This document shows positions 30,401 to 60,152 of a stretch of 64,000 bases of DNA, piece by piece. This stretch comes from Acholoe squamosa. Lineage: Eukaryota; Annelida; Polychaeta; Phyllodocida; Polynoidae. Both the position numbers and the translations under genes were made by a program. The notes beneath the pieces are model-generated. The model had not been told where the DNA came from. It saw nothing but the letters and a program-made list of their open reading frames with translations, and did not search any database. Every line of letters starts with the position of its first letter. The first letter of the stretch is position 1. Location: contig OX439037.1 of assembly GCA_949317995.1 (NCBI GenBank), positions 19,828,324 through 19,892,323 on the forward strand, given 5' to 3'.

Positions 30401-31542
30401 ACTGTAAATCAATAATAACAGTATAATACTGTAAATCAATAATGACAGTACTTATTCATAAGCGGTTAAACGATCCACTGACTTTGCCTTGCTTTACCCA
30501 GCATCACTCCTGTACCAAGAAGCCAATATAAAGAGGATATATGCCAGTTTCCTTAATGATAGTGTCGACCTTTATGAAGATGTGGTCAGTTCCAGGCTTA
30601 CCTACAAAGAGAAAATTTTGATACTCACAGTGAGCCTGATGTTAGCCTCAGGCAAATGTCGCCAAAATGAGTATATTTTGATACTCACAGTGAGCCTAGG
30701 GTGTAGGCATACTCCAGCAATACCTGACACTCTACTCTAGATTGTTTATGGCCTAGCTCTACCCTCTCTACTGCCCTACTTTCACAGTGCAGGAGTCTCT
30801 TTAGAGACAGGCTCAGGGTAAACTGGAGTAACATAATAGAAGAGAATAGGACATTGGCTGAGTATCTCTATGAAGAGGGTCAGGCAATGCTAGATCCTAC
30901 CTGAGCAGGCTCCAACATTGCAGGAGTCTTTCTTACCAATGGTGTTATGCACTGCCAGAGTATCCCAATACATAGGATCACACTTTGCTGGATTCTACCT
31001 TCAGAGTGAGTCCAGCAACACCACCCAGTGGGCACAACCCCACTTAATGAGGTACTAATCAGCACTGCATTGTAGGACTTACATAGGTCATTGTTAAACA
31101 CTATAAGGAAATATAGAAATTAAGGTCACCATATGACAAAAGCCATTATTTTAAACACACAAGGACTTTAGATGGTCCAACATTTAACTTCCTAAGGTAG
31201 TCTAATTAATCGATGAATAGTTTGTGCATTCCTGGTTTCAGTGTCCTTATTGCTCCTTGGTTGGATTTGAACCGGGTACTTCCTTATTGTAACTCCTTTG
31301 TGCTCCTATCTGTGCTAGGGGGGCAGGTGTTGAAAGTGGCACCATCAGTATGATATTTCAACCATAGACCTACTACAGTGAGATGTCATTGGTCATATGA
31401 TGCCCAGTAGACTAATAGAAAACACAGACTGGAGTGACCATTGTAAGAAAAAATGCCAATAGTAAGGACAAATGTCCACAATGTCCTCAGTAAGTATGGC
31501 GCAGTCCTACTTATATACCTATCGCAACCTGGCTCAACGGTT
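27401..31542. other. Block B-only sequence, no gene recognised
   Basis: Frames of 60-96 codons occur at 27992, 28886, 29101 and 30489 but none shows a domain. Small local duplications are present: AATACTGTAAATCAATAAT twice at 30400-30445, and TTTTGATACTCACAGTGAGC twice at 30616 and 30675. Confidence 0.4.
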
Positions 31543-31613
31543 GTACCAGTGGCACAGCGGTAGAATTCTTGCTTTGCATGTGAGGGGTCTTAGGTTCAAG
31601 TCTCGGTGGTGCT
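31543..31613 (+). tRNA. tRNA-Ala(TGC)-like sequence, probably a pseudogene
   Basis: A tRNA fold can be drawn: acceptor GTACCA with TGGTGC, A-box-like TGGCACAGCGGTAG, anticodon stem CTTGC/GTGAG with loop TTTGCAT (anticodon TGC), and B-box-like AGGTTCAAGTCTC. Stems use several G-T pairs and the B box departs from GGTTCGANTCC, so a decayed gene or a SINE head is more likely than a working tRNA. Confidence 0.5.
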
Positions 31614-31817
31614 GAGAAACATTTTTCATTATTTCAGTTTAATAGGAAACATCTTATCTATTGCAGTGTATTTTTCTAAGACCTAACTTTGTAACTAATT
31701 GAAATAGATGCTTGCTTGAAAAGTGACAGAATATTCAACATCTGCCAAGTTAGAAAATAGCAAGAAAATAAATTATTTGCCTAACAAAAAAACTTCCACC
31801 TCTTGAAGAGCAGTCCT

Positions 31818-43750: not shown

Positions 43751-44945
43751 CTGGGGGGCGTTACACAAATAAGGGTCAGTCGTTCTGATATTTGTTGCTG
43801 TAAGTACGATAAAAGTAACGTGTTGTTCTGAACACCGTTACACAATCCCCACCCCCTGATATAACGAAAATTGCTGTCACAGTGACTCTCTTGTTGTGGA
43901 ACGAGGAAAGTTGCCTGCAACGATGCATACAGGGCACAGCGAACCAGCGTAATTTGACATAGATAGCGCAATACGTCACTTCTGCTGTAAAGGACCTGCC
44001 TTGTTCACTGCTTCGACAGCAACTCTCTTCTAACATGTCTTCCTACACAGAAATGGTAAGGACAGATGAATCTCACCTGACATAGGGTGTATTTTGACTA
44101 GAGTTAGTTGTCTATGTGACTTAGGTAGCCTGTCTTTTACTCACGGTCATAATTCTTGAAGTGACTCTTGATCAGGAAGACATAGATATCTTGCTACATG
44201 ATGCCTATCCTATCTTCAAAGACACTTTGCTCACAGGCAAGTTAGAATTAACTCCCAATAAACCCAATACCTCAACTCCTGTCAAACTTACCCAGAGGGG
44301 AACAGAGCGAGTAAGGGAGGAGACGTGGACAAGGGAGGAGCATCAGGTCCTCTTTTATCAACTCCTGAAGCAACGCCACAACATCAAGTCTGCTGGTAAG
44401 GGAGCCCAGGGACGTAGAAAGGAAGGCTGGGACACGGTCATGGGTAAGTTAAAAATAAAAAGAGACTTTACACATATATTCTTTCTGCCCCTCTACTTTC
44501 ATGTAACAGTCTACGTCCACTGTCACCTACTACAAAAGAAACTTTATCCCTTAATAACTTCATGTAACTTTATATTGATCTCTTTTTGATGTAGTAACCT
44601 ATGTCCACTGTGACCTACTTCCACTACAAAGAATCTTTTTGCCTTAATAATTTCATCTCACTTTATGTCGATCTCTCTTTGTTTGTTTGAATATTATCAG
44701 ACAGTAACATCTTATTTTCAGCTTCTATAAACAGCGTAAGGGAGACTGAGCGCAAACTACACACCACCCGGCATCACATAAATGATTTTTTCTACAAAGC
44801 CTCTAAGAAGGCAAATATACAAGTTTTCTTTTCAAATGAAGATGAAATATTTCCTGATCTTCTTCTCTGCAAGCACTGACAACTAAATCATCCTCCATGT
44901 TCCTTTGTAAAGTTAAAAATTTCTTTCTGTAGCCCATGTGTTTTA

Positions 44946-44982
44946 CCGTAATCTCCCGCGTCTAAGGCGCCTCTTTTTTACA
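44946..44982 (+). mobile_element. Single end of a pogo-like MITE
   Basis: TACCGTAATCTCCCGCGTCT and the following AAGGCGCC match the left end of the 547 bp MITE at 37855. The other end is not found nearby. It lies in an intron of the first Myb-like gene. Confidence 0.5.
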
Positions 44983-46094
44983 TCATGCCTCTATTTATTA
45001 ATTTATTTTTCTTTTTTAATTGTGACCCTCTTATTTTTTATCAGAACAAGGCTTACCCGAAGTTCATACGGGATGGAAAGGAATGTCCAGGTTTGTTGTC
45101 GGAGGAGATAATGTGCCTCAAGTACAAAGGGAAAAAGTACATAGCAGGTGAGAAAACTTTTGTTACTTAATTCCTTTGCACCTTTTCTCATTTCCATCTG
45201 CCAATATATTTCATGAAGTAATTTGACTTTGATTTGTAGTTCCCCCTAGACTAAAGAATCGTTGTTTCCTCACCCTTATGCATTGTTATGTTTTTTTGTA
45301 AATAATTATATGAACCAATTCAATCTTTTTTTATAGGTCCTAACGGAGAGATAGTGCACGGTCTACAGAACAAAAAGAAGGAGGACCCCCCCTCACCCGT
45401 CAAACCCTCCACGGATAAATCAAACAAGGCCTCAGCTAAGCCAGCTGGCAGTAAAACCCAGTCGTCATGCAAGTTTTCTGCTCCAGCACCCTCCACTCCC
45501 AGCAAGCAATACAAAAACAAAGAGAAACCCCTTAAGCTTAAGAGGTCCACCAAACATATTAAAATTGAAAAGAAAGAATCTGCTTCATCCTCAGATAATA
45601 TGAATGTTTGTGTAGTTAATGACAGCATGGACGAGGATATAATAGATCTTACTACAGTCCCTTCTGTTCCCAATGAAACTCCAGACAAGGTCAGCCCGGT
45701 CAAACAACCGACCCGTCGTAGTCCCTGTTTAGCCAGCAAGAAGAGCCTATCTTTTGAAGACCCTACAAAGGCATCTTTAGAAGAGCCTCCTAAGGTCTCC
45801 TCCCCCTCCCCTTTCACCTCTACTCCAGTTATCTTTTGTGGTAGCCAAACTGGAATCGCTGGTTACCTTGTCAGAACTAGACAGGAAGGAGACCAACAAA
45901 TACTTGAAAGACCTACTTCATCGCCATACAGATGCTGTCCAGCGTATGATAACACTGGAAGAAAGAACTGTTTCAGACAGAGAGTTAATATTGTCGACAC
46001 AGTTCCAGACAACTAACAACCAAACAGAAATAATAAAAGGTGAGTCAAAGTACCTTGGTGTTCGACGATGTTTTGTAAAAGTACTTTTATTACC

Positions 46095-46957
46095 CGGTCT
46101 TCCCTAGCCCACTTAACCCTTTGGTGCCAGAATTATTTGAAGATTTTACATTATTTCACAATTGTATCACTTAGCTTATAAGGCCATGTATTATTTTGAT
46201 CTTCTCTTGATTTGGGCTCTGCATTACACTTTCTGAATACTAATAACTGAGTGAAGACTTTCAGTTAAGGACATGCAATTTATTGGTCAGGTCTGGTAGC
46301 CATAGTTACCAAACCATTCCATTCCATTTGTTGTTATTTGGTAGTATTTGGTCTCTACTGTCTTATGATATAGCCCCCCACTTCCCATAGTCCCTGAGAC
46401 CTCACAGCACATTCAATTCTTATTCTGCCCATATGTGTACTGCCACCCCAGGAAACATAATGTGCTAGTATCAATGCATGGATTCTCTATGGATATGAGC
46501 AGTTCTTTTAGAATCTAATGACAGTATGGCACATTGGATATAGCATAATATTGGTGTCAAGTCAGGTCTTAGCCCCCTGGAGGGTTGTCCTCTAATGAAT
46601 CACATAATATGACAGCTTATTATCAGGTTTTGACTCCCTGTGTTTAGTATAATGGAGATCAAGCAAAACGAATGCTTGTATTGTAATTGTGACATCATGG
46701 CCATTCTTTACAGGGTCTAACTTTGCAGATTGGGCCAGTAGAAGTATCTGGGTGATAATTTCCTTCAATGTACATGCATTTAAGCCCAAAACCGCGCATT
46801 TAAGCGCGCTTGGGCACCTAAGGGTTAAAAGAGTCTATTTCTCCTCTTTGCTGTCCCCTCAGGATGTGTGTTGTCCACATGTGCGTGGGCATGGACACAT
46901 TCCTCTGTGATATTTTGTAATGTAGTTCTCGCCATGAATATGCCCTTAGCTGTCGAA
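46095..46957 (+). mobile_element. SINE copy 9, split by a TTAA MITE
   Basis: The head CGGTCTTCCCTAGCCCACTTAA at 46095-46116 resumes after the MITE as TTAAAAGAGTCTATTTCTCC at 46825 and runs to about 46957, where it stops at CTTAGCTGTCGAA without the GGCGTTAAAC tail. It lies in the intron 46040-47020 of Myb-like gene 1, so it joined after the transposon had inserted or while it was active. Confidence 0.88.
46117..46824. mobile_element. 708 bp piggyBac-type MITE, copy 1
   Basis: TTAA on both sides (46113-46116 and 46825-46828), exactly restoring the SINE sequence CACTTAAAAG when removed. Ends are CCCTTTGGTGCC and, in complement, CCCTTAGGTGCCCAAGCGCG. TTAA duplication with CCC-starting ends is the hallmark of piggyBac. 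Non-coding. A second copy in the opposite orientation is at 60329-61036. Confidence 0.92.
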
Positions 46958-47791
46958 TTCTCTCATTTCAATGAAATTTAATAAAATAAAAAGGTTTTCT
47001 TCTTGGTTTTATCTTTACAGTGCTGGCCAAGCTGATTCATGTGACAGAAGGAGCAGTTAGGACAACTACTCGTAGCTGTCAGACCTTGTTGTGTTTGGAA
47101 ACACCACTGCCAGAGGTAGATCATGGACAAGCCAAAGGAAAGCAGAACAAAGAGAAAGAAAAGAAAGAGAAAGAGCTGGAGAAGCCAAAAACAATAGAAC
47201 AAGTAGATGGTAAGGGGGCAGATGGTAATGAAGATAATAATTCAACTGAAGATGGAAAGAAACAGGAAAAATTAGTAACCGAGGGAGACCACCAGTTACA
47301 TGACAAAGAGAAAGAGAGTTTGGAGAAGCAATAAGAGGAAAAACCTAAGGGCATGGATGAAATCAAAGAATTGGACCTTAAACAAAGTCCCACGCCAGCC
47401 CATCAACCTGCACTCAAAGATAATTCAGTTGCGCCGCAGAAAGATAAGTCAGTTGTGCTGGTTAATGATACAGCGAAAACAGAGGATGATCCTATTGACT
47501 ATAGTAAAACATCAGTGCCTATTGACTTCAGCCATAAGGGTAAGTGTTCTTCTCGGCGTGCGCAGAGTGAAGAGAAAGACAACGGATCAGGTGACAGAGA
47601 TGACAAGTCAGAGGAGGAGGCGGCCCCTCAAAAAAGGAGAAAGCAGGCAGAACCTAAAAAGGCGAAGGACAACAATGATCCAAAAAAGGTGGATGAGGCA
47701 GAGGTTACCACCAAAACCACCCATAAAAGAGAACTGCCCCCCCAAAAAAAAGCAGCAAATGAAAACTAACTGAACTTATAAGGACATAAAA

Positions 47792-47970
47792 GTCTGTTAC
47801 AGTCAGACATAATTGATACTTTTGTGCCAAGGAGAACTATTGATCTCACTTTAATTAGCGACTACTTGTGAACATTAAGCCATGTCTATTACAATTAGAC
47901 ATTATTTATATTTTTGTGCCAAGGAGAAATATTGATCTCATTTTAATTAGCGACTACAAACATTAAGCCA
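47792..47970 (+). repeat. Tandem duplication, ~92 bp period, two copies
   Basis: GTCTGTTACAGTCAGACAT (47792) and GTCTATTACAATTAGACAT (47884) begin two copies that share GTGCCAAGGAGAA, TTTAATTAGCGACTAC and CATTAAGCCAT. They lie just downstream of the stop of Myb-like gene 1, in its likely 3' untranslated region. Confidence 0.85.
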
Positions 47971-48780
47971 TTCATTTCTTACCGTTCAAGTCCATATATA
48001 TTCTTTTATTGCCAAATACTGCTATATAGATCGTACCTGCGATATAATGATTTTAAAGACTAAGTCAGTATTGGAGGAATCAGTATCATTTATTTATCTA
48101 TGAAAACAGTAGATGTTATTCAGTGGTATGGTGGTTTTCCACTTATTTTGTGTTTTACCTGCTATCAGTATATACCACACGCAGGCCCAGTCCCTACCAA
48201 CCGGTATGCGCCTTGATTATGTTAACCCTGAAGGGTCGCTGAAGCTGCATGTTAATATTTCCAGTAAATGACTTCTGTAACAGAGTCATTTCTTTTTAAT
48301 TTTTAAGGAGTACATGATACATGGCAAGTTTGCTTTTTATTTTAATTGCTGGCGACACAAAGCACATACAGGGAAAAGGAAGTGCTTTCATGTTCAGGAA
48401 GAGGACGCAATATAGCCTATGTATAATATCTCATTTATCCAAGAAACAAAGAAAGATGTAAACTCAAAGATTAACCTTTTAAATAAAAGTTGTTTGTTTA
48501 ATATTAATTGTTCAGTTATTTCCTCCTATTGATCATGATAATTTCTGGTAAATAAAGGAAAATTAAAAATAAAACAGATTCTTAAGGACACCATTTCAGG
48601 CTAATAGTATCATTTAAAAATAAATACATGCAGCCTAACATACATTTTACCTTGTCTTGTCTATCGAGTCGTTATGATTCTGATATGATCCCCAAGGGGG
48701 CCTATGTGTCGCTGTGAAGTTTGTGACGTCACAACCAGAGGTCGTGATGGTTAGGGACGTTCAAAGAAAAATCAATCCAA
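47971..48780. other. Spacer between the two Myb-like genes
   Basis: Non-coding. GTGACGTCAC at 48723-48732 is a perfect CRE/ATF-type palindrome about 50 bp before the proposed ATG of gene 2, a possible promoter element. Confidence 0.45.
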
Positions 48781-50715
48781 ATGCCTAAAAGGGGGGAAAA
48801 GGTGAGTTCTATTCATGTCCTAAAGGTGAAGTGAGAATTCAGGAACCGCACTACATTGGTAAAAATGAAATTAAAGGCTGGGAAAATGACTTAGATGTTG
48901 CACGCTCATAACGAGAAAAATGAACATCTCTTCATAACGATTTATCGTTCTAATTTTCTCGTTCGTGTACCGGTATACTTTAAAATTTACTACAGTTTCT
49001 CTCTCATTTCTCACATGCAGGGAGGTACAGCTAAGACAGGTACCAAAAAAAAAGAAACAACTGGTCCTCACACCCAAGGAACGAAATGGCAGGTCTGAAG
49101 CTTCCACCCTACCTTCTCTCCCCCCTCCCCCCACTCATCCCTCAAGGAAATGACACAGTTCATGTGAGCGACTCCTCAGTGAGTCAGAGAATGTGGCCCT
49201 CCAAGAAGATATACCTGTCAAAGAGGGGAGATGGTCTGATACAGAACTTGATGCCCTTCTTGATGCTATCAATGTAAATCGAGACGCCCTAAAGTACCAT
49301 TTTGATGGACCCGGGGGTGGTAAAGAGGTGAAGAGACAGGGGTGGCGAGTCGGAAGAACCAACCGTACAGTTAAGCAATGTGCTGGGAAGGTATCAGACT
49401 ACACTCAGTCAGTCAAGGCTAAAGTAAGTACTTTAATTGTAATCTAATGGTATTTTGTACTTTATACAATCAAATAGTCATAAAGACAATTCTATTCAGT
49501 TCTTTAATTTTTAAAGTAGAATTTATTTTCTTAACATGTCACTTAAAAGCTAATATTTATAACAACATACAATTTATAACCCAACTTTATGAACCTTTGA
49601 GATATGTCAAGATTTAAATTTTTTTGAAAGAATGAAAAAGAAAATTCACCCTGGTGTCTTGATTTACAGTACAACAGGTTAAGGCATGAGGTTGGGAAGA
49701 CCGGTTGGGGCTGCATAAGTAAGAAGCTCCATCTCTCAAACCGTCAACAAAAGGCACTGGATTTTCTTAAAGAGGATGCTGTTGCAGGTAGATAACATTG
49801 CACCTAGTTATAACCATAATGAATCTCCTTCACCTGAAGATGATAAACATGATGGCTTCTAATGTCTAATTTAGTCAAAGTAAGATCACATTAAACCAAG
49901 GTGAAGCATGGCTATCTAATTGAAAATTTTGATACAAGTCATTCATACTATTAAGAAAAAAATTAAAAAATATTATCTGGTTTATCGCTGACTCATGTAT
50001 ACCAGGAGTGGAGCCTATGGAGATAAGTGCTAAGGTGAGACCTACATGTACACCCTTTGAAGAGAACAAAAAGCTGCTGTGGAAGGAGGAGAGAGAGGAC
50101 AGGCCAGATTACTGCAAAATAAAAATGAAAAAGACATGGGTGCCACATAGACGAAAATCTGAAAAGAACAGCAGTCAGGCAAGGAAAGCCAAGTTGTAGT
50201 GAAAGAAGGACCACCAGGAGAAAATGATTAAAGAGAGACAGCTCGAGGAGGAAGAAAGAGAGGCCATGGAAGTAGCTGATAAAATGGCCAATGAGGAAGA
50301 ATAAGAATAACAGCTTATCAAAGACAAAAAAATAATACACCCACAAGGAGAATTTTCTGACAGTGTCGAGGAATCAAAAGCTAAGAGGGAAAAGAAAGAG
50401 CGCAAGAGGCAGAGAGCAGAAATAAGGGCAGCTAGAGAGGAGAGAAGGATGAAACGGCTGGAGAAAGGTATAAAAGAAAAACAACTCGAGGTGAAAGAGG
50501 AAAGAAATGACAGGGAGCATGGGGAGGAGAAAGGAGAAGTCGCTGAAATCCATAATCAGGACAAAGAGAGCTGGGAGAGAACAAATGAAGCTCAGAAAGA
50601 AGAAAAGGCAGAGCGAAAGAGGAAGAGAGCAGAAATAAGGGCTGCTAGACAGGAGAGAAGGATGAAAAGGCAGAGAGGAGATACTTTTGTGAAGGGTATT
50701 TTACAACAATACTGA
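48781..50715 (+). pseudogene. Harbinger Myb/SANT-like gene 2, four exons, broken
   Basis: Exons inferred: 48781-48801 (ATG CCT AAA, donor GTGAGT), 49021-49423, 49670-49787 and 50006-50715. A Myb/SANT-like domain spans exons 2-3: EGRWSDTELDALLDAI, then VKQCAGKVSDYTQSVKAK and TGWGCISKKLHLS. Exon 4 encodes a long Lys/Glu/Arg coiled coil with internally repeated KRAEIRAARQERRMKR. Stops at about 50198 and 50302-50309 and at least one frameshift in exon 2 show decay. AATAAA at 50763 fits a poly(A) signal after the TGA at 50713. It differs clearly from gene 1, so the element has two separate Myb-like genes. Confidence 0.7.
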
Positions 50716-51044
50716 GACATTTTCTGCTCCTAAAGTGGAATAAGGTTTCATTGTACACCTTGAATAAAAAAGAGAATTAAAAGTTAATATTGGTACTTTG
50801 TAGGTTATGTGTTCTTAAGTTTATCACATCATACGAAGTAAAATTTGTTTTTATACTAGTCAGTTGGTTGGTTCTAGCAGAACTTAATGTGACAGAACTT
50901 AACAAGTTGAACAGAATGGACTTTGTTCAGTCAGTACATAACATATCTTCATACAATATCACTGAAAGAAATGAATAGATGTATGAAACATCTTTACAAG
51001 TCCAACATTAATAAGGATGAATGAGACAAGGTGCTGTGAAAATA

Positions 51045-52843
51045 TTAGAAGGACTTGTTGACATAATCCTGGCGAAACCCTCGGATGCGCTCGCTCTCAG
51101 TTTCTTCAGTTCTGTTGGATCTTTGGTGGGGGAGCCCTGACAGGGATCCATGGGTCGGATGGATGTGTTGTAATCCTAACGCCGTGATCCAGGGCCACAT
51201 TATGTAGGAAAACATGAGATGATTATCTTGGCGCTCCGTTGAGGGCTGTGGCGGATGTACCCAGCAGAGGAGTCTAGGATACTGTGTCAAAAAAAAAAAT
51301 TACTCACAAAGGACGAAAATTTTAGTTATAAAGTATTGTTGTCGTAAAGATAAATAATAGTAACAAGGCCTTAAGAAAATGATATCCAAGAGGTTTCTAC
51401 ATGACAGTAGCGGAAGTAAGTTACTAAAGATTTTATAACATTAGATATTATTGGAAAAAAAAATTGCTACTCACCGCCACCTCTACTTCAATATCCCGAT
51501 CGACTGCTCCACCCAGACTCGCGTTTTGCGGTGCCACTTGTTGAAACTCTCCTCCTTTGTTCCTGGTTCAGTCGTCCTGTAGGGAGTGAAGAGATTGGGC
51601 TTCAGGCCGTATCTGGGAACAAAAAACAGACAATATAAAGTAATGAAGTACAGATAATAGGTGTCGGACTAGAAATTGAAAGAAAAAACAAACTTGTTAC
51701 TCATGGCAAAAATGACAAAAAGTACTACATTGAAAAAATTACAAAAAAATAGTTAAGGTACTTACCCACTGTCTCCAAGGAGAACAAACTTGCCCCATAC
51801 TTCCTCCTCGATCTCATCTCCGACAGGAGAGCACCTCAGTGCATAAGAGTCGTTAACAGATCCTGGCCACCTCGAATCCACATATATTATCCTCTTGTTG
51901 AAGTCTGAGATGATCTGTAAATAACAATTTGTTTTTGTTTTTAATAAATGTCTTTGTTGAAGAGTTTATTCCTTATTGATGTATTCTTTATGTCAAATTT
52001 CATTAAAAAAATGTTAAATTTCATGTCAAATTTCATTACATATAAAGGATATAAAAACTGAAGAAGCAGAACAAACAAAAAAGTATGAAGAAGTGCAAAA
52101 AAAATACTTACAGTCGTGTTGATAGAATGATACCCTTTTCGACAGACATAAGGGGCCTCATTCTGCTCAGGTGTCTTTATAGGAATGTGGGTGCCATCCA
52201 CAAAACCAAAGACGTACTACTTCTTCTGTTCCTGGTCGGAGCCCTTGGGTTTGTGGCGATAAACTTTCAGAGCGTTTTCCATCTTCTCTTCCAATGACTC
52301 AGGCCACTTTATAAACTCTTGTTCCTCTGTTTATAGAAGAACTCAGTGACATCCTTCACAGAGTGACACAGCAATGTACGGGAGACATGCTGAGTGTCCC
52401 CTGTGGTGCTATAGAAAGAACCCGTAGCATAATACCTGAGGACCAGGCATAGCTGAAAAAATAAAAAATAAAATATAAAAAATTTTGCTCATATTTTGTA
52501 TGGGACTTAGCCAAAGAAAAATTTTAACAACAATTGACAAATATTTCAGTATTATTCTTTCCATTTCTTAATTAATTTTTTATTAAAATGAATTATTGGG
52601 AATTTCTTTTTGTTTTTTATTCTTTATAACTTACCCTGTCCAAGTGGGACAGTCCCCTCCTCTCATGGTACCTTTGAACGCTCTGTGTTGGCTGTATTCA
52701 TCAACCAACCTCTTGATGACTGGTTTAGTGAGCCTGTAGCTGGCCTGAAACTCAGTCTCGTCGTAAATGGCAAAAGGAGACCTCCTTACTTGGATTTTTC
52801 TCTGCTTTCGACCTAGAGAATCTCTCTTTGGAGAAGGAGCCAT
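51045..52843 (-). pseudogene. Harbinger transposase, HARBI1-like, five exons, broken
   Basis: Exons on the minus strand: 52843-52635 (ATG start), 52452-52112, 51914-51766, 51612-51475 and 51281-51045, all with GT-AG borders. Exon 1 has the Harbinger N-terminal pattern ETEFQASYRLTKPVIKRLV. The first catalytic Asp is in FGFVDGTHIPI (exon 2). RWPGSVNDS follows in exon 3, the second Asp is in LLGDSG at the exon 3/4 border, and the Glu is in TRVWVEQSIGILK (exon 4). Exon 5 keeps LHNVALDHGV. Lesions: a frameshift and a TAG in exon 2, a TAG after GILK, and frameshifts in exon 5. All three catalytic residues survive. In the family it cuts and pastes the transposon with help from the Myb-like partner. 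Confidence 0.92.
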
Positions 52844-53054
52844 ATTTGATTTTCCCTCGCTAAGACAGGAAGTGACCCAGAGAAGGAAAATTACTCTGGT
52901 CTCCCCCTCTTCGTTCGGTAAAAAATGTCAGAACGTTAGGTTATAACGAGAATTTCTGGTTGGAAAATCAGAGCGACTATTTATATTGTGTAACGCACCT
53001 CGCTCCCTACGAGAGTCGTAATGTAACGAGACCTGTTTGTGTAACACCCCCCAG

Positions 53055-59989: not shown

Positions 59990-60041
59990 GAGGGTCCGGC
60001 CCACGTCCGTTCGTAGCCGGGAGGCAAGCGCGCATAACTGC

Positions 60042-60152
60042 GCCGCTAGCAGGATTCGAACCCGCGAGGTCCCGATGTACAGTGGCACCAGCCCCAAAAG
60101 ACGGCGACTGGAGGAACTATTCCAGCGCCTTAACCCGCTCGGCCATGGCGGC
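60042..60152 (-). tRNA. tRNA-Leu-like module 1, expanded anticodon/variable region
   Basis: Minus strand: GCCGCCATGGCCGAGCGGGT and AAGGCGCTGG form a good Leu/Ser-type 5' half with A box. GCGGGTTCGAATCCTGC is a perfect T arm, and GCCGC pairs with GCGGC at the ends. A stem CTGGA/TCCAG stands at the anticodon position with an eight-base loop, and a long insert follows. It resembles a tRNA-Leu with an enlarged middle, or a SINE head. The 131-codon frame on this strand only reads through the modules. Confidence 0.6.

Follow-up and report, generated by a model that had tools for sequence, protein, structure and literature searches.

Two Myb/SANT-like genes and a DDE transposase in a probable NuwaI-type element of the polychaete Acholoe squamosa

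A stretch of 64,000 nucleotides from Acholoe squamosa (contig OX439037.1, positions 19,828,324 to 19,892,323; hereafter 'the window') contained, at 43751–53054, a DNA transposon with three genes within one pair of inverted ends: two different Myb/SANT-like genes, MybA and MybB, on the plus strand and a DDE transposase on the minus strand. The copy in the window is a dead and decayed member of one family (F1). MybA was found upstream of MybB in all five families sampled (F1 to F5, with one locus each for F2 to F5); the form with two Myb genes and three genes in all is a stable variant within this one genome, and the second Myb protein seems to be an enduring component of the machinery. These elements probably represent a cut-and-paste lineage in which MybB is the usual partner of the transposase and MybA a second end-binding or architectural subunit. 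The genes were delimited as follows.

44035–47769, plus strand: gene MybA, decayed; exon borders set manually, using copies and splice signals.
44035–44055, 44155–44442, 44721–44809, 45042–45148, 45336–46040 and 47021–47769, plus strand: approximate exons of MybA.
44155–44809, plus strand: Myb/SANT-like domain of MybA, with one intron inside (44443–44720); from Pfam and the family alignment.
45624–46040, plus strand: C-terminal module of MybA, with IIDLT (resembling a SUMO-interacting motif, SIM), RRSPCL and a stretch that is coiled-coil-like by eye; from counterparts in F1 to F5.
46113–46824, no strand: later insertion in the window copy, a unique stretch of 712 bp missing from the other nine aligned copies.
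48781–50715, plus strand: gene MybB, decayed; from copies, splice signals and Pfam.
48781–48801, 49020–49423, 49670–49788 and 50002–50715, plus strand: approximate exons of MybB.
49175–49423, plus strand: Myb/SANT domain of MybB; from Pfam and F1 copies.
51044–52843, minus strand: DDE transposase gene, decayed; from copies, splice signals and Pfam.
52843–52634, 52454–52115, 51916–51767, 51613–51475 and 51283–51044, minus strand: approximate exons of the transposase.

Searched against the whole genome (1.48 Gb), the left-end pattern matched 301 places in forward and 255 in reverse orientation; the reversed control matched 10 and 21, respectively. Nineteen places were taken from approximately the first 100 end matches listed, being facing end pairs plus four further exact single ends. 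Ten of these (L009, L010, L011, L012, L014, L015, L024, L025, L026 and L027) make up the F1 family together with the window copy, and parts of MybA, MybB and the opposing DDE transposase occurred in one order between the same ends at 10 of the 11 loci (the window and nine of the ten others). A preliminary description of the window had proposed three genes, two of them distinct Myb-like genes facing a transposase on the other strand; this was borne out by the Pfam domains and by less decayed F1 copies, in which these genes recur with their order unchanged, as they also do in a copy of F2 and one of F3 described below. The transposase was partly kept in L014, while some MybA exons were missing from L011. 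No relatives of the three genes were found at L013, and the remaining places (L016–L023) were short elements of approximately 0.9–2.7 kb with similar ends and sites; the F1 left end could be aligned in five of these eight (70–73% over about 130 bases) and not in the other three. The short elements were perhaps moved in trans by the three-gene elements.

Pairwise identity among the window copy and the nine colinear F1 copies was 85.0–96.6%. Measured by end positions, six of the ten other copies were 9.0–9.4 kb long and four were 7.3–8.7 kb. The large size claimed at the outset is upheld by the former, with a correction to the window copy itself, which has both gained and lost sequence. Missing from it are approximately 558 bp of MybA at 44154/44155, a stretch that all nine aligned copies keep, as well as 125 bp at 52933/52934, close to the right end, which eight of the nine keep. 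Conversely, an insert of 704 bp (46117–46820) lies in MybA with TTAA repeats on either side, beginning CCCTTTGGTGCC and ending GGCACCTAAGGG; as piggyBac elements target TTAA, this would be a piggyBac-like non-autonomous element. All three genes are disrupted in this copy: the MybA exon at 44155–44442 has lost its 5' part by deletion and an in-frame stop occurs at 47332–47334; MybB is missing codons inside its Myb domain and has in-frame stops; and the transposase exons carry both stops and frameshifts.

The transposase in the window displayed a DDE_Tnp_4 domain (E = 1.4e-24), as did less decayed transposase letters (E = 3.4e-23), for which the sole other Pfam match was an overlapping DDE_Tnp_1 (the last exon being outside the scan). 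Its motifs VDGTHI, SVND and VEQSIG presumably mark the positions of the three acidic DDE residues, after HARBI-type transposases. MybB, which may resemble NAIF1, matched PF13837 weakly in the window copy (E = 0.009, under the curated cut-off) and cleared the cut-offs in less decayed F1 letters (PF13837, 30.7 bits versus 27; PF13873, 24.8 versus 21.7). MybA matched PF13873 weakly in the window copy (E = 0.0011, under the curated cut-off), and no Pfam match above cut-off was obtained in any part scanned. Beyond the Myb domain of MybA, all five families possessed [VI][VI]D[LM]T, RRSPR[LI], TSTP, KKLSF-type and LIHVTEG-type motifs, together with a coiled-coil-like stretch identified by eye; the order of TSTP and RRSPR in F1 differs from that in the other families, and the RRSPCL of the window copy reads RRSPRL in other copies. 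The motif [VI][VI]D[LM]T arose in 1–3 of 2000 shuffles per MybA sequence; VIDLT-type motifs bind SUMO. Lysine/arginine-rich C-termini of MybA were encoded in F1 to F4.

In the F2 copy (L058), each of the three genes had open frames of exon size, and one end, with GGGGG, was read. The F3 copy (L059 and L060, G000:C5:63664900-63680700) retained both ends, a CAG on each side and all three genes; it was 12.7 kb long, having a retroelement nested between MybB and the transposase. This retroelement was of the non-long-terminal-repeat kind in appearance (endonuclease-reverse transcriptase match, E = 0.0016, under cut-off), and an exon close to the element looks to us like EXOC2. In F4 (L061) and F5 (L062), MybA was again upstream of MybB with the last transposase exons beyond; the F4 copy had a stop within the Myb domain of MybA, and the first half of that domain in F5 lay outside the stretch read. 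F2, F4 and F5 were chosen through their ends, MybB or transposase, blind to MybA, and F3 through its MybA match. MybA identity to F1 over the aligned part was 63% for F2, 46% for F3 and 45% for F4; over a longer stretch, F2-level matches were mostly at 47–53% and F3-level matches at 37–38%. Many of the F3-like MybA matches listed were near-identical at that level and nearly all were without stops, which suggests a family that amplified recently.

Protein searches of the genome gave at least 171 transposase, 150 MybB and 150 MybA matches, with 150 candidates scored in each case. Neighbouring genes were counted on part of these lists (36 transposase, 49 MybB and 42 MybA places), which did not include second exons, distant high-copy matches or fragments. 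Among the matches listed, 19 F2-level MybB genes had MybA upstream in eight cases, the transposase downstream in eight and both in four, while MybB was downstream of 8 of 17 F2-level MybA genes. Missing neighbours among the matches listed, in F1 as in F2, are a mixture of list limits, fragments and true losses that are not separable.

The ratio of amino-acid-changing to silent differences per site (pN/pS) was calculated over all 45 pairs of ten F1 copies, the window included, these pairs being non-independent. It was 0.44 for the Myb domain of MybA, 0.36 for that of MybB, 0.49 for the scored part of the MybB C-terminus, 0.27 for transposase exons 1–4 and 0.72 for the weakly constrained C-terminus of MybA; decay after insertion moves such values toward 1, as was visible in the close pair L015–L026. 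Because amino-acid-changing differences were fewer per site than silent ones, all three genes appear to have been kept while F1 spread, the MybA tail least strictly. Non-coding difference among F1 copies was 0.079. The silent difference in the transposase (51474–52840 and its L009–L027 counterparts) was 0.138, or approximately twice that in the Myb genes and non-coding DNA, which could result from CpG decay or from exchange between subfamilies. When profiles of MybA and MybB, built from four and five sequences, were aligned with hhalign without a negative control, the match had a probability of 91.6 (E = 8.3e-7, 22% identity over 76 columns). On this similarity the two proteins are distant relatives, and the simplest reading would be that a Myb gene was duplicated long ago within the element and that the two copies then diverged. 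Alternatively, two elements may have fused when the lineage first arose, an event that would be hard to distinguish from gene duplication.

The inverted ends at 43751–43770 (plus strand) and 53035–53054 (minus strand) gave two matches in the window, compared with 0.02 expected from shuffles, consistent with the single pair of ends described previously. No further copies of the 20-base end pattern were found in the window at up to three mismatches, nor any second pair of ends between the two Myb genes. The terminal repeat as first proposed was real, except that its outer CTG/CAG belongs to a CWG target-site duplication; the repeat itself begins at GGGGG.

43751–43753, no strand: left target-site duplication, CTG; from side-to-side identity of CWG in other F1 copies and from the empty sites of L025.
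43754–43769, plus strand: left terminal inverted repeat, GGGGGCGTTACACAAA; from end-pattern and site searches and F1 copies.
43760–43768, plus strand: first 9-bp site, GTTACACAA, within the left terminal repeat.
43837–43845, plus strand: left subterminal 9-bp site, GTTACACAA, recurring at that distance in other copies.
52986–52994, minus strand: right subterminal 9-bp site, GTTACACAA, at a distance of 59 bp from the end and recurring in other copies.
53036–53051, minus strand: right terminal inverted repeat, GGGGGTGTTACACAAA on the minus strand; from end-pattern and site searches and F1 copies.
53037–53045, minus strand: 9-bp site within the right terminal repeat.
53052–53054, no strand: right target-site duplication, CAG on the plus strand, unequal to the left CTG in the window copy.

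Target sites were read in 20 elements, comprising the window copy, ten F1 copies, eight short relatives and one F3 copy. The trinucleotide outside the terminal repeat was CWG at both ends in all 20, for which it should be borne in mind that copies were picked with a CTG-containing end pattern; the pattern biases toward CWG at one end and the C and G were partly selected, while agreement of the middle base was not. The same trinucleotide stood at both ends of 16 elements (all ten F1 copies other than the window, five of the eight short relatives and the F3 copy), the sides being unequal in the window copy and three short relatives. This was interpreted as a duplication because bases of an inverted repeat would be complementary, not identical, across sides. 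When the flanks of L025 were joined with a single CTG, 40 matches were scored; two were the halves of the filled site and 38 crossed the joint, the best of these paralogous empty sites showing 96% identity over 219 of 219 bases. L024 and L026 lie within tandem arrays; for these, an empty unit holding a single CAG could be aligned without gaps, at modest identity.

The matching inner repeats noted previously (GTTACACAA at 43837 and 52986) also recurred in most other copies. Allowing at most one mismatch, 18 of the 20 elements had GTTACACAA at 80–90 bp from the left end (0.2% in shuffles); at the right it was present at 54–64 bp in 14 and at 114–136 bp in 16, in counts for which six elements were reoriented (three by gene order, three by eye) and whose copies are related rather than independent events. 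The shuffle rate for subterminal positions was 0.1–0.4%. With the terminal-repeat sites included, the array consists of two sites at the left end and three at the right; the third right site, at approximately 131 bp in most other copies, is gone from the window copy, where 125 bp were deleted. The F3 copy had GTTGCACAA at all five matching places, i.e., the same A-to-G change throughout, as would be expected if one protein bound them all.

In zebrafish Harbinger3_DR, as reported, a subterminal motif of 9 bp is bound by the Myb-like protein, and neither of the two proteins is dispensable (PMC9710019); in the cases tested, Harbinger-type transposases are described as dependent on a Myb partner (PMC9710019). 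By this analogy, MybB would be the usual Harbinger partner, binding the 9-bp sites, taking the transposase into the nucleus and delivering it to the ends, and the transposase would cut and then insert at CWG with a 3-bp stagger. MybA would be a diverged and extended Myb duplicate; in the role that we infer for it, that of a second subunit for end binding or architecture, it might pair with MybB or bridge the unequal ends, and its conserved tail may contact host nuclear proteins, possibly SUMO. A stronger version can be offered tentatively, in which MybA, by virtue of its SIM-like motif, coiled-coil-like region and basic tail, would be an obligate second subunit for end recognition or bridging, and the arrayed sites would evolve with the Myb proteins. 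If this were true, the difference between outer and inner sites in F2 would represent two proteins reading different sites.

Various observations weigh against these readings. The PF13873 match of MybA was present in four of four family members and under the curated cut-off in all (best E = 0.0011), one of the four having been scanned with X in place of a stop. The predicted structure of the MybB domain was of low confidence, and to this may be added the small, uncontrolled profiles that link MybA to MybB and the weak constraint on the MybA tail. Among the matches listed, 30 F1-level MybB genes had MybA upstream in 17 cases, the transposase downstream in 17 and both in 13, and MybB was downstream of 17 of 24 F1-level MybA genes. 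The preliminary description had named as counter-evidence any copy in which these ends enclose a single Myb gene, and this exists in one form, L025, from which the MybA domain is gone; we read it as a deletion derivative. The duplication is mismatched in the window copy, whose flanks are single-copy and hence without an empty-site comparison; beyond F1, the duplication was read at both ends in F3 and in short relatives, and at one end only in F2. Lastly, the sites did not always change together, as the F2 copy had GTTACAGAA in the terminal repeat with GTTACACAA at the inner left site, and several short relatives had ATTACAGAA at the inner right site.

Among the alternatives, it is conceivable, if doubtful, that MybA is a copy-number regulator or silencing antagonist, its SIM-like motif and RRSPRL module acting on host chromatin or SUMO. 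The conservation of [VI][VI]D[LM]T in all five families, set against its rarity in shuffles and accompanied by RRSPR[LI] and KKLSF-type motifs, is consistent with this, as are the short non-autonomous relatives with like ends, since ends may be all that an element requires to move when proteins are provided in trans. However, the motif is a short linear match and a putative SIM, and MybA has kept a Myb/SANT-like domain related to that of MybB, which suggests that it also binds DNA or a complex. It is unlikely that the two roles are reversed, such that MybA binds the 9-bp sites and MybB, encoded beside the transposase, is a loading or nuclear-import partner. Both proteins have a Myb/SANT-like domain, either could be the binder, and the long basic tail of MybA could import the complex; yet MybB is closer to known Myb/SANT models, being above cut-off, and among the matches listed MybB and the transposase were 2.1–2.6 kb apart in 16 of 17 F1-level pairs, four of the 17 being without MybA.

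That MybA began as a host gene, captured and then transported as a passenger, is improbable: it is long, multi-exonic and without an above-cut-off Pfam match in the parts scanned, but it occupies the same position and orientation in five diverged families, its amino-acid-changing differences are outnumbered per site by silent ones, and MybB of the same element is related to it. Least probable is the origin of the second Myb gene from a Harbinger nested inside another element, which the preliminary description had suggested as one possibility, and a recent event of this kind is rejected; the relatedness of MybA and MybB would accord with it, but a second end pair is absent from the window when up to three mismatches are allowed, each element read has a single transposase gene, and the order of MybA and MybB is common to five families in which MybA of F2 to F4 is 45–63% identical to F1 over the aligned part.

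The lineage offers a natural experiment, given that end recognition and nuclear entry by the usual pair are only partly known and that two diverged Myb partners have been carried through at least five families; it may reveal which Myb parts are required by the transposase, by the 9-bp sites and by the host. Annotation built around two open reading frames (ORFs) and approximately 4.5 kb might overlook such elements or break them up, and a three-gene parent may provide the mobility of short relatives that share its ends. Elsewhere in the window, there was a tandem array at 725–1641 (2.6 copies of a 356-bp unit), as well as a tRNA-Ala-like gene at 31541–31615 (ARAGORN) and a tRNA match at 60041–60152 (Rfam), either of which could be the head of a tRNA-derived short interspersed element.

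The element was compared with known members of the PHIS (PIF/Harbinger-ISL2EU-Spy) superfamily. In the PIF/Harbinger type proper, such as zebrafish Harbinger3_DR, there is likewise a DDE transposase with a Myb/SANT partner and a repeated 9-bp motif near the ends (PMC9710019, PMC9179366), but the duplication is described as TWA (PMC4482050) in place of the CWG seen here, and there is one Myb-like protein in place of two. Given CWG and not TWA, this type was rejected. ISL2EU has a related DDE transposase but is described with an AT duplication and a YqaJ protein (PMC4482050); it was rejected on account of the CWG duplication, and no match to the THAP domain or YqaJ protein of that type was obtained in the proteins scanned. 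Spy, again with a related DDE transposase, is described as lacking a duplication and having one ORF (PMC4482050), and was rejected given the 3-bp duplication and three genes present here. The vertebrate pair NAIF1 and HARBI1 similarly combines a Myb-like protein with a PIF-derived transposase, but these are domesticated host genes with one Myb partner (PMC9710019). The label of Harbinger element, used in the preliminary description, holds for the Harbinger-type DDE transposase and its Myb partner; the group, however, is probably NuwaI, with CWG and GGG ends, rather than the TWA type. Spy reportedly has an AAA/TTT target.

NuwaI elements, in the account of Han et al. (2015, PMC4482050), have a CWG duplication and terminal repeats of 12–61 bp that usually begin with GGG; autonomous candidates mostly have two ORFs and average approximately 4462 bp, and the group is reported there from bony fish, a beetle, a crustacean, a mollusc and an anthozoan. 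The present element shares with that description (PMC4482050) the CWG duplication, seen in F1 copies and F3, the GGG-starting terminal repeats (GGGGGCGTTACACAAA in F1, GGGGTCGTTGCACAAAC and GGGGCCGTTGCACAATC in F3), a PIF/Harbinger-related DDE transposase without other domains and an element-encoded Myb/SANT protein as second ORF, which is MybB in F1 letters. Because of its CWG duplication and GGG-starting ends, it fits the NuwaI group and not the TWA-type PIF/Harbinger elements. No description of a two-Myb element of this type was found among the matches listed in searches of the open-access literature, Repbase and subscription papers being outside that scope. Whereas NuwaI elements are described with mostly two ORFs in about 4.5 kb (PMC4482050), a usual feature rather than a strict definition, there are here three genes, two of them Myb/SANT-like, in approximately 9 kb; it is this second Myb gene and this size that are new in a NuwaI-type element.

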